64,000 nucleotides of DNA from Methanomicrobiales archaeon HGW-Methanomicrobiales-1 (GTDB taxonomy: Archaea > Halobacteriota > Methanomicrobia > Methanomicrobiales > Methanospirillaceae), in the NCBI GenBank assembly GCA_002839675.1, contig PGYM01000001.1:238683-302682 (forward strand), read 5' to 3'. The translations under genes were made by a program, and so were the position numbers. The notes under the pieces were generated by a model. The model searched no databases. It saw only the letters and a list, made by a program, of their open reading frames with translations, and had not been told where the DNA came from. Shown one piece after another: positions 42,933 to 47,542 of this stretch. Numbering within the stretch: the stretch's first letter is position 1; each line of letters opens with the position of its first letter.

Positions 42933-43586
42933 GTGACGGTCTCGGATCTGGTGCGGGTGCACGCGTGTCCGGTCCGGTTTTATTACGAACAGGGCGAGCC
43001 TTTCTCCGAATCCGACCGGTACGCGGTCTGCAAGCAGCTCTCGTACCATCTCGGAACCCCCCTAGAGGTGGACGTGATCTGGCAGGAGATCCTTTCGGTC
43101 TCCCCAACACTCGATCCGTCCATGAAGGAGTTCCTGGAACTCTGCATCACGGCCTGCAACAAAAGCGAATGGAAACCCGCGGTCCAGACCGATGTGAAGG
43201 CGGTCTCGGACAAGCATGGGATTGTCGGCATGATCGACCGCATCGCCGCCGATGGCACGTTCTCGATCGTCCGGGCGGCAGGAGCCATGCCGTTTGGCAC
43301 CTATTCTGCCGACCGCATCCGGATTGCCTGTATCGCGTTCTGTCTGGAGGAGATGACCGGTGAGGAAGTAAAAGGCGGGAACGTGGAATATATCCCGGAC
43401 GGTGTTTCCCGCTTCCACGAGGTCCAGCCCCGGGACCGCCGGCAGGTGATCGCGACGATCCATAAGATCAAAGCGATAAAGGACGGCGAGATGCCCCAGC
43501 ACCCGTTGAACGCTCCCTGCAACCGGTGCAAGTACAATGAGCGGTGCGAGAGCAGTGTAGGCAGGCGCTTGTCCGAGCTGTTGTAA
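42933..43586 (+). CDS. Cas4/Dna2-like Fe-S nuclease-fold protein, active site doubtful
   Basis: 217 aa from GTG 42933, with AAAGGA upstream. The N-terminus (VSDLVRVHACPVRFYYEQGE) has the first cluster cysteine and the CPxxFYY pattern of Cas4/Dna2-type PD-(D/E)XK nucleases. The C-terminus has the other three cysteines in PCNRCKYNERC. In between, GIVGMIDRIAADGTFSI keeps the aspartate, but the following strand, where E-x-K is expected, reads VRAAGA. The catalytic centre therefore looks degraded. No other cas gene or CRISPR is near. It may be a structural or DNA-binding relative. Confidence 0.72.
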   Translation: MTVSDLVRVHACPVRFYYEQGEPFSESDRYAVCKQLSYHLGTPLEVDVIWQEILSVSPTLDPSMKEFLELCITACNKSEWKPAVQTDVKAVSDKHGIVGMIDRIAADGTFSIVRAAGAMPFGTYSADRIRIACIAFCLEEMTGEEVKGGNVEYIPDGVSRFHEVQPRDRRQVIATIHKIKAIKDGEMPQHPLNAPCNRCKYNERCESSVGRRLSELL

Positions 43587-44271: not shown

Positions 44272-44643
44272 TTACTGGATTAACTTGACTATTTCATTTG
44301 ATTTGGATAGGCAAATCTGAGCGTTAAATTCCGTTATTGTATAATGCTCCCTGTAATCTGAATTTGTTCGCCATTGAATCAGATGAATTAAATGCTGCCC
44401 TATTTTACTCCTTTTGGGATCTTTACTTTTCGCAAAAAAATCAATCACTTCTTGATGCGCAGCACCATCCTCAGAAATTTTAGCGCCTTTTGAAATTGCA
44501 TAATTTCTTAAGAAGCAGTGTGATGCATAATACGATCTACTAATTGCGCATCTAAAAGCTGCTTCTTTCAATTCGTCATGAGATTTCCCATAACGATAAA
44601 CGCACTGAGCTAGTTGAAGATAATCGTTCCAATTGAATGTCAT
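44272..44643 (-). CDS. HEPN-domain protein (candidate RNase toxin)
   Basis: 123 aa, mostly helical. The segment AISRSYYASHCFLRNYA contains R-x5-H (RSYYASH), matching the Rx4-6H motif of catalytic HEPN ribonucleases; the RSYYAxxxF context is typical of HEPN proteins. The start overlaps the stop of the preceding gene (ATGA at 44640-44643). It is the last gene of an AT-rich three-gene operon. HEPN RNases commonly serve as toxins in defence or toxin-antitoxin systems, so this is the likely effector (inference). Confidence 0.7.
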   Translation of the reverse strand: MTFNWNDYLQLAQCVYRYGKSHDELKEAAFRCAISRSYYASHCFLRNYAISKGAKISEDGAAHQEVIDFFAKSKDPKRSKIGQHLIHLIQWRTNSDYREHYTITEFNAQICLSKSNEIVKLIQ

Positions 44644-45215
44644 TTCATTTCCACTGGGGGTTGAAAATCAGTAGAGATTATGAAATATGCCGATTTTCCA
44701 ATGACATCATTCCAAAATGTGTCACACAAACCATCAATAGTCTCCATTATATCGTGAGGATATTGTTTTTTCCTCACATTTAAAACGAGAAATTGAAATC
44801 CACTTTCTAGATCTTTAGATACTTCTAAAGATAGTTCTGTATCTTTATCAAAAATCTCTGTCGCGAGTTTGCATCCATTAAGAATAACCGGCAGAATATC
44901 TTCATGATCTAAAATGAATCCACTAATTTCATCAATATTAGGAATATAAATGTGGGACAAAAAATCAAGTGAATATAGCGATGATTGTGTAGGTGAAATA
45001 TATTCATATTCGAGAGTAGTGGAATAATCTGTTTCGAAATGAGATAAAATCGCTTCGATGATTTTGACTATTGACTCATAAGTCCTTTTTGTAAAATCAT
45101 ACGTGTCTATTGAAAATGCGTCCTCATCAAAATTTAAGCTATACGCTTTGGTGTATTGATGACTTATTATTGTGGGGGATGTTCGTATCATTGAATTCGA
45201 AGAATAACAATTCAA
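44640..45215 (-). CDS. Unknown protein, middle gene of HEPN operon
   Basis: 191 aa from TTG 45215, which overlaps the TGA of the preceding gene; ATG 45191 (MIRTSPTIISHQ) is the alternative start. It is acidic, without membrane helices, and mixed alpha/beta with aromatic-rich strands (TTLEYEYISPTQSSLYSL, FQFLVLNVRKKQYPHD). No family recognised. It is tied by overlaps to the TIGR04255 gene upstream and the HEPN gene downstream, so it should act with them, perhaps as antitoxin or sensor. Confidence 0.7.
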   Translation of the reverse strand: MNCYSSNSMIRTSPTIISHQYTKAYSLNFDEDAFSIDTYDFTKRTYESIVKIIEAILSHFETDYSTTLEYEYISPTQSSLYSLDFLSHIYIPNIDEISGFILDHEDILPVILNGCKLATEIFDKDTELSLEVSKDLESGFQFLVLNVRKKQYPHDIMETIDGLCDTFWNDVIGKSAYFIISTDFQPPVEMK

Positions 45216-45973
45216 TTAAATCTCTCCATTAATTCTTTGAATATTCTGTCAAACCACGTGTGAGTCAATTTATGGGATGTATCAATCCATTGAATAATTT
45301 CTTCGGGACTCTGTGGAACTGCGTCTTTTTTCGAACTAATAACTGTTTCTGTTATAATTGCATCCTTGTTTTGTCTTTTACCCCGGACTATTCGAACTGT
45401 CGCAACACCTTGCGTAAATGGATAAGAAACTCGGAAATCAATTCCCAAGGGGATATTATTAACATTCGTATCATTAAACAAAGATTCAGGCATTGAAAAA
45501 TTTATAGCCATTTTTTCTTTTAGGAAAACGAGAATATTTTCATTGAAGTCATAATCGATCGCATCTATATACCTTAATGTTAGTCCACTAACTTGTATTT
45601 CTTTTGAGGATGGATACAATGAGAAATAGCTATTTATCAAATCACACAATCTTTTCTGATAATCTGGCCAATCATAGTTTTCAGTGTCATTTAAAGTAAT
45701 AATCCCAGGACCCATTTGAATTAACGGCCATCCTCCCTCTTTTTTTCGGAATCTGTGTTGAATAATATAGGCTGCCATCTCATCAGGCATTGTTGCTTGA
45801 GGAAGAGACTCATGGAATGGATACTCGCGTTCACACAATTTATCGTAGAGTCTACCAATTAATAATTTATAATTTGGATCGATTTTCACACCCGGTGAAG
45901 GCTGATCAAGCTTCCATTTCATTTCAAAAATTGCCTCTACCAACGGAGCTTTCGGCAATTTACCATCTATCAT
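45212..45973 (-). CDS. TIGR04255 family protein
   Basis: 253 aa. The opening KLPKAPLVEAIFEMKWK, the central QMGPGIITLNDTENYDWPDY and SGLTLRYIDAIDYDF match the sporadically distributed TIGR04255 family, whose function is unknown. GGTGA lies five bases before the ATG and a TATA box at 46015. It is first of three overlapping genes. Base composition is clearly lower in GC than the neighbours, which suggests horizontal transfer. In my reading it could be the sensor of a small defence cassette. Confidence 0.8.
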   Translation of the reverse strand: MIDGKLPKAPLVEAIFEMKWKLDQPSPGVKIDPNYKLLIGRLYDKLCEREYPFHESLPQATMPDEMAAYIIQHRFRKKEGGWPLIQMGPGIITLNDTENYDWPDYQKRLCDLINSYFSLYPSSKEIQVSGLTLRYIDAIDYDFNENILVFLKEKMAINFSMPESLFNDTNVNNIPLGIDFRVSYPFTQGVATVRIVRGKRQNKDAIITETVISSKKDAVPQSPEEIIQWIDTSHKLTHTWFDRIFKELMERFN

Positions 45974-46107: not shown

Positions 46108-46680
46108 ACGTCCCCTCCCCAAAGTGTCTGGAGGGATACCCCCTCTCCAAAACCCGAGGGGGGGTATACAGCCCCACCTACCCCCCCTCCTGCGCAAGAC
46201 AGGGTACCACCCCCCCCCCTTTGCTACACATACCCGGCCACGGTTTCCGCTGGAGTCACGACGCAGGACCCTTCCCCTCAGCCAGCACCCGGAGGGGGGT
46301 ACCCCCCACTCAAAAGTACGAGAGGGGGTACCCTACCCCCCTGTCCAAAAAACGAGGGGGGGTATACCCACCCCCTCTCCAAAAAGTGAGGGGGGGACCC
46401 CCTCCCCCCCTGTCGTACGAAAGACAGGGTACCTCCCCCCCTCCGGGCGCAGGTACGCTGGCACGGCTTCGCATGGAGTCACGCCGGAGAGGGGTTTTTG
46501 TGAGGGGGGGTCATAAGGGTGGGATACCCCCTCTCTTGCCCATGAGTGGGGGGGACCCCCTCCCCCTCTCCAAAAAATGAGCGGGGGTATACAGCGTACC
46601 CTACCCCCCCTCTTGTCTAAGACAGGGTACCTCCCCCTCCCCCCCTCAGGAAACAGAGAGGGGGTACCACCCCCCCTGCT
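46108..46680. repeat. Tandem array of C/G-skewed hairpin repeats
   Basis: About ten imperfect inverted repeats follow one another. The typical unit is TACCCCCTCTCCAAAAxx followed by GAGGGGGGTA: C-rich and G-rich arms pair around a CCAAAA loop. Examples start near 46137, 46299, 46336, 46368, 46540 and 46562. A second hairpin type, CCTGTC-loop-GACAGGGTACC, occurs near 46188, 46409 and 46609. Twice (about 46239 and 46461) the segment CACGG-TTC-GC-TGGAGTCACG is interposed, giving a higher-order period of about 195-225 bases. GGTACC palindromes recur. No genuine gene is here; the Pro/Gly-rich frames are a by-product. It lies between the HEPN operon and the small gene at 46844. Confidence 0.85.
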
Positions 46681-46843
46681 GTTTCGGTCGGGTGGTTGTC
46701 CGTGGGTGAGTTACGGTCCTGCAAAAACCTGTCACAATGGGGTGTTGTGGGACGCAGACCATCACTTTCGCCATCCGCATGCCCCCGCCTTTTATGCTTT
46801 TTTTGGGAATGTTCTGGATCGCAAACGAAAGGAAGTGTTACCC

Positions 46844-47203: not shown

Positions 47204-47542
47204 TATAGTGTCTGGTGGGTCTGCGGGAATTTTCAGCAATTATAGGATAACCGAATCGGAATTTTCCCAAAAAACCTATGATTGGATTTGATGGGGGTTG
47301 AGACCCCCATACCCCCGGATAGGATAAACTCCGCCGCCCCGAAGGGCGCCCCGCGGCGGATCAATGACGGGAAAAAAGCTGGCAAATGAATGAGAAAAAC
47401 CCTCATTGCCCCGCCGTGCCTCGGAGAGGCCCTGAGGCGGGGGAGCCTCGTTAATTTCGAAATTTTACTGTTTTTACCGTGACAAGGTGAATTAATTTCG
47501 TTTGTTTCCGTTTCACCGGACCCGGATTACTGTAAAATAAAA
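47204..47542. other. Intergenic region with a cluster of hairpins
   Basis: Four consecutive inverted repeats: ATGGGGGT-TGAG-ACCCCCAT (47291-47310), TCCGCCGC-loop-GCGGCGGA (47329-47359), AATGAG-loop-CTCATT (47389-47407) and CCCCGCC-loop-GGCGGGG (about 47411-47443), the last enclosing GCCTC-GGA-GAGGC. No coding frame of note. Could be a structured RNA, a terminator set or repeat debris. Confidence 0.55.

Follow-up and report, generated by a model that had tools for sequence, protein, structure and literature searches.

To our knowledge, few REP- or MITE-like families have been described in archaea. The described systems closest to the locus treated here are those two classes and the BoxC/TMECO repeats of E. 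coli. REP/BIME elements are recognized by palindromic units of 20-40 bp arranged in mosaic clusters, and MITEs by being small, non-coding, and multi-copy. REPs usually occur in more than 100 copies per genome (PMC2817692). BoxC/TMECO consists of intrastrand-triplex repeats that are intergenic, lack accompanying mobility genes and orientation bias, and are tied to local genome variability (PMC4666352).

The window that we analysed is a 64,000-nucleotide stretch of the genome of Methanomicrobiales archaeon HGW-Methanomicrobiales-1. At 46108-46690, direct reading and repeat finding reveal tandem C-run/G-run hairpins with A-rich loops, together with a distinct block that occurs twice. We propose that this array is probably one member of a family of composite palindromic repeats, non-coding and dispersed, in its genus (presumably Methanoregula), and that the family multiplies and rearranges as DNA. 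No description of this repeat was found in the open-access literature.

For convenience, we call the clusters of C/G-run hairpins H and the conserved 53-nt block S, such that the layout reads H-S1-H-S2-H, with S1 and S2 being 223 nt apart. All parts are given on the + strand. The left hairpin module cluster, H0 (46108-46213), looks truncated at its left end in comparison with other copies (direct reading, repeat finding, copy alignment). S1 (46214-46265), with the core CACGGTTTCCGCTGGAGTCACGACGCAG, aligns with the other copies and scores 40.9 bits (E 1e-11) with profile R1. H1 (46266-46436) comprises a linker and a central cluster of four hairpins with the closing arms GGGGGGTACC / GGTACCTCCCCCCC. 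S2 (46437-46489), running CTCCGG...CACGGCTTCGCATGGAGTCACGCCGGAG, scores 43.3 bits (E 1.8e-12), a value to be read in the knowledge that this very sequence is in the R1 training set. H2 (46490-46690), a linker and right hairpin cluster, ends in ...GGGGGTACCACCCCCCC, and the sequence common to the related genome G015 resumes at 46702. In the profile search, the two S blocks of this copy appear as CACGG...TGGAGTCACG at 46214-46265 and 46437-46489. Repeat finding yields nine copies of a 38-nt module, the tandem ones spaced ~34 nt; the region further holds 17 inverted-repeat pairs, three GACAGGGTA sites, and six GGTACC sites.

Folding is stronger than that of dinucleotide shuffles on both strands (z = -5.2 on the + strand and -5.9 on the - strand; 0/100 shuffles as good), and the hairpins therefore exceed chance. 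The open reading frames that overlap the array are low-complexity translations of the repeat ('PPPLSKxRGG'), and the array is non-coding. The first-pass annotation, made from the sequence alone, had described just such a gene-free tandem array of C/G hairpins, with two CACGG... blocks and a period of roughly 200 bases, and it had set the array apart from CRISPR. These points hold: CRISPR arrays likewise consist of tandem repeated units, but here the modules are hairpins of varying sequence, repeat spacings range from 28 to 156, and the spacers are themselves hairpins rather than unique sequences of constant length. G-quadruplex-forming DNA, another of its suggestions, is not supported, the pattern of four G-runs of 3+ with loops of 1-7 nt giving one marginal match in 583 bp and none on the other strand.

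The window array is one of about 15 dispersed copies in its own genome, each of ~550 bases and strictly intergenic. DNA similarity alone identifies at least 14 separate array loci, several of them near full length at 73-89% identity, and a further, diverged locus (C2:209847) is recovered with the S profile. The genome contains 27 S blocks, two in each of 13 arrays and a single one in another, such that 13/15 copies have exactly two; the copy near C1:709.5k has no S block. An alignment of 47 blocks separates S1 and S2 as distinguishable subtypes. All 41 motif matches in this genome fall within arrays or in the stretch C1:709-710.5k, and GGGGGGTGGTACCCTGTC and GACAGGGTACCACCCCCC frequently delimit the H clusters. 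Misassembly, which the first-pass annotation had listed as a possible refutation, is unlikely because the same layout recurs at 13 sites of this 5-contig genome and in other assemblies, and because related arrays are present in single-contig genomes.

According to ORF-based gene calls, the genes to either side of a locus are divergent in some cases and co-directional or convergent in others, with neither a consistent gene orientation nor a common neighbour family across them. The proteins flanking one locus show no relation to those flanking another, a few short or weak matches excepted, and no transposase was seen beside the arrays examined. An association with tRNA genes was considered and rejected, as only the tRNA-Ser(GGA) site recurs. 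In a tree of S1-H1-S2 cores, the copy closest to the window array is the 170k copy of the same genome (90/95 support). As a separate observation, the 170k array lies ~108 bp from the start of the gene encoding TBP, the TATA-binding protein (L052 4272-4823).

The family resembles REP/BIME in its short palindromic modules, mosaic clusters, intergenic and dispersed placement, and limitation to a lineage, and modules of 38 nt at ~34-nt spacing fall within the palindromic unit of that class. It differs from REP/BIME in having about 15 loci only, below the usual REP copy number, and in being a long fixed composite with conserved S blocks, often situated between divergent genes, in an archaeal host. 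The Y1 transposase domain PF01797 (Y1_Tnp), sought as a sign of a RAYT/IS200 mobilizer, is absent from the 97.7% complete own genome, with the controls giving matches in 5/14; REPtrons can, however, be lost (PMC3733652), and this absence is thus not final. Like MITEs, the copies are small, non-coding, and numerous, and some have inverted end repeats (GGGGGGTGGTACCCTGTC / GACAGGGTACCACCCCCC). Such terminal inverted repeats are present in the copies c2_548k and c4_18k, and the window copy lacks them on its left side; unlike those of MITEs, the same repeats also bound internal modules, and the ends vary among copies. The end motif AAGACAGGGTACCNCCCCC occurs in the own genome only in arrays and in one nearby fragment. 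A further difference from MITEs is that neither a target duplication nor a parent transposon was found, the transposase search having covered PF01797. Since the own genome has no Y1 transposase and no target-site duplication was found, we do not file the family under either class: it works like a BIME or a MITE, yet we count it as a member of neither.

The first-pass annotation had named beforehand the lack of any similar array in related genomes as grounds for giving up its reading, and related arrays proved to exist in many species of the genus. DNA similarity reveals clear copies in five genomes (G001, G004, G006, G008, G022), all of the same genus, and none in any of the 16 genomes of other genera searched. 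The S profile was built from sequence only and is therefore not biased by a structure. It matches 21/39 genomes of the genus at E <= 0.01, of which some near E = 0.01 may be chance; many of the positive genomes were not in the training set, and S is flanked by C/G hairpins in most of the out-of-training matches inspected. Paired S blocks 184-198 nt apart recur in G003, G009, and G017, and single-H copies without S exist in G006. The near relatives G015 and G012 have no detectable strong copies by either DNA similarity or S profile. Among 199 genomes of the order, one convincing S match lies outside the genus, in a member of a sister genus of the same family (G170); R1 matches in G129, within a coding-type repeat, and in G060, where hairpins are missing, were treated as false. 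An exact pattern search across 84,980 species genomes matched only two Methanomicrobiales MAGs, and plasmids, phages, and viral contigs gave no match to the repeat.

Occupied sites differ among relatives. At the window site, six relatives retain the flanking genes without this array and without the neighbouring AT-rich operon; G006 has a small diverged hairpin cluster only, on the other side of a gene absent from the window. The interval from iorB to tRNA-Ser(GGA) contains an array in the own genome and in distant species, with that of G050 reversed relative to the tRNA; it contains none in the close relatives G001, G004, G012, and G015 and one small hairpin in G022. Surveyed across the genus, this interval is repeatedly occupied, in both orientations, and is nearly empty in the close-relative clade (L209-L210, L213-L215, L239, L241, L243, L244). 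We also note that the iorB match of G006 contains a TAA (G006:C10:21713-22351, L212). The c2_31k site contains an array in G008 and none in G006. At several other sites, arrays are present in two or more species, and transposition must therefore be rare. Support among copies in the phylogeny is mostly weak, and a reading by orthology or concerted evolution alone was set aside, the core tree mixing sites and genomes with few well-supported forks. The site pattern is what one would expect of elements that are copied now and then and persist for long; either independent insertion at preferred sites or differential loss may also underlie it. Comparisons of occupied and empty sites gave no clean junction, no target-site duplication, and no sharp common ends.

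If the family does persist and multiply as DNA, whole elements would occasionally be copied to new intergenic sites, and slippage or recombination between the C/G runs would add, remove, or exchange hairpin modules. The recognized part may be the S block, with its conserved sequence and partly compensatory arms, perhaps as a stem-loop in single-stranded DNA, and the arrays would behave as fragile junctions at which foreign AT-rich DNA is joined or tolerated. Of the four options offered in the first-pass annotation, a mobile-type or dispersed repeat is the best supported; 'mobile-element scar' is too weak a term, given that the two-S layout persists throughout the genus. Against the reading as a DNA-level repeat stands a copy number that is low for a selfish repeat, and selection for a host function could likewise explain why the two-S layout is fixed throughout the genus.

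The AT-rich surroundings recur. In the own genome, background windows predict 0.2 arrays with a 1-kb flank of no more than 37% GC, and 5/14 have one. This test was made after the pattern had been seen in the window, with a background drawn from the same loci and the window, and relatives therefore serve as replication: 6/18 of their arrays have a flank of 40% GC or less, a level found in 2.2% of windows. The side on which the AT-rich flank lies relative to array orientation is mixed. In the window, this flank is a three-gene segment of 31-35% GC on the - strand (44272-45973), comprising a HEPN-like ORF, an unknown ORF, and a TIGR04255 gene, and six related genomes contain nothing matching it at this site. 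The first-pass annotation was right to call it AT-rich; its further label, a putative defence operon, finds little to lean on in a HEPN match below cutoff, a TIGR04255 gene, and no PADLOC match. The AT-rich neighbours near the 170k copy (L052 7377-9979) include a DUF5655/NucS-like protein, which matches PADLOC PDC-S18, and a Fic protein, which matches SoFic.

The alternative that survives best, though we consider it unlikely, is a multi-copy structured RNA or cis-acting RNA element transcribed from the + strand, with S as its functional core and with A-rich loops in its hairpins. Strong folding, A-rich loops on one strand, an S block conserved across the genus, and the fixed two-S layout speak for it, as does the pairing of S arms, which is better than after exchanging arms between blocks (three versions of the test, p = 0.016, 0.026, and 0.001, the latter two being two clustering levels). 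Because the versions depend on one another, the analyst set the boundaries of the segments tested, and relatedness is only partly controlled, we grade as moderate the evidence that S contains a stem, in RNA or in single-stranded DNA. The H hairpins, in contrast, do not covary: variable stem positions are paired in 147/248 cases against 143 +/- 6 expected with shuffled arms (p = 0.28). The covariance check proposed in the first-pass annotation therefore came out partly compensatory for S and negative for H. A consensus fold of 15 whole copies likewise exhibits little covariation, with an unfavourable covariation term (+1.2), which supports the view that the arrays are not a single structured RNA gene. 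At the gathering threshold, Rfam identifies only tRNAs in the window, and relaxed thresholds add weak below-threshold matches taken as chance. Copies situated between divergent, co-directional, and convergent genes also count against an RNA.

Somewhat more doubtful is a DNA element maintained by the host, either a putative binding array for chromosome or nucleoid proteins or an insulator absorbing supercoiling between divergent promoters. It would suit the strictly intergenic placement, the sequence conservation of S, and the position of about six of the 15 loci between divergent genes, typically 90-180 bp from ORF starts (ORF-based); yet G015 and G012, without detectable strong copies, have the same gene order at the sites examined, and occupied sites differ between species. 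To a comparable, low degree of belief, the two S blocks could be what an undescribed archaeal system, directed by protein or RNA, recognizes; such a system would maintain the hairpin arrays at particular intergenic positions, where they would serve as boundaries at which incoming AT-rich, defence-like DNA docks or recombines.

Least probable in our estimate is a non-B-DNA fragile site (cruciform or intrastrand triplex) of the BoxC/TMECO kind, rearranging passively and locally without a recognition signal. The alternating C/G runs, the AT-rich flanks, and the site-to-site variability speak for it, and the intergenic placement without orientation bias or nearby mobility genes recalls TMECO (PMC4666352). 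TMECO is, however, a 37-nt motif, whereas the present element is a ~550-bp composite with two conserved S blocks, and passive fragility leaves both the conserved S block and the fixed S pair unexplained. The order within the array, read by eye as a regular Y-R-Y-R, moreover differs from the Y-R-R of class II triplex descriptions; repeats of the BoxC/TMECO type are recognized by a Y-R-R or R-R-Y order together with mirror symmetry.

Taken as a DNA-level repeat, the family stands out as a long fixed composite kept across a genus, in an own genome without a recognizable Y1 transposase, with arrays that border AT-rich DNA of foreign appearance at well above the expected frequency. Cultivated species appear to contain members, and one can therefore ask directly how palindromic repeats persist without a RAYT and whether the repeat shapes where foreign genes settle.

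Two further features of the window deserve mention. A Cas4/PD-(D/E)XK-like nuclease gene lies at 42933-43586, a few kb upstream of the array. The second hairpin cluster reported in the first-pass annotation is present at about 47290-47450, but it belongs to a different repeat family: the short hairpin repeat GCCCCGCCGTGCCTCGGAGAGGCCCTGAGGCGGGG (47407-47441), unrelated to the array, is present 12 times in the own genome, in six cases with identical sequence, and here as well as in relatives it occurs together with a second hairpin, of type CCGCCGCCCCGAAGGGCGCCCCGCGGCGG.
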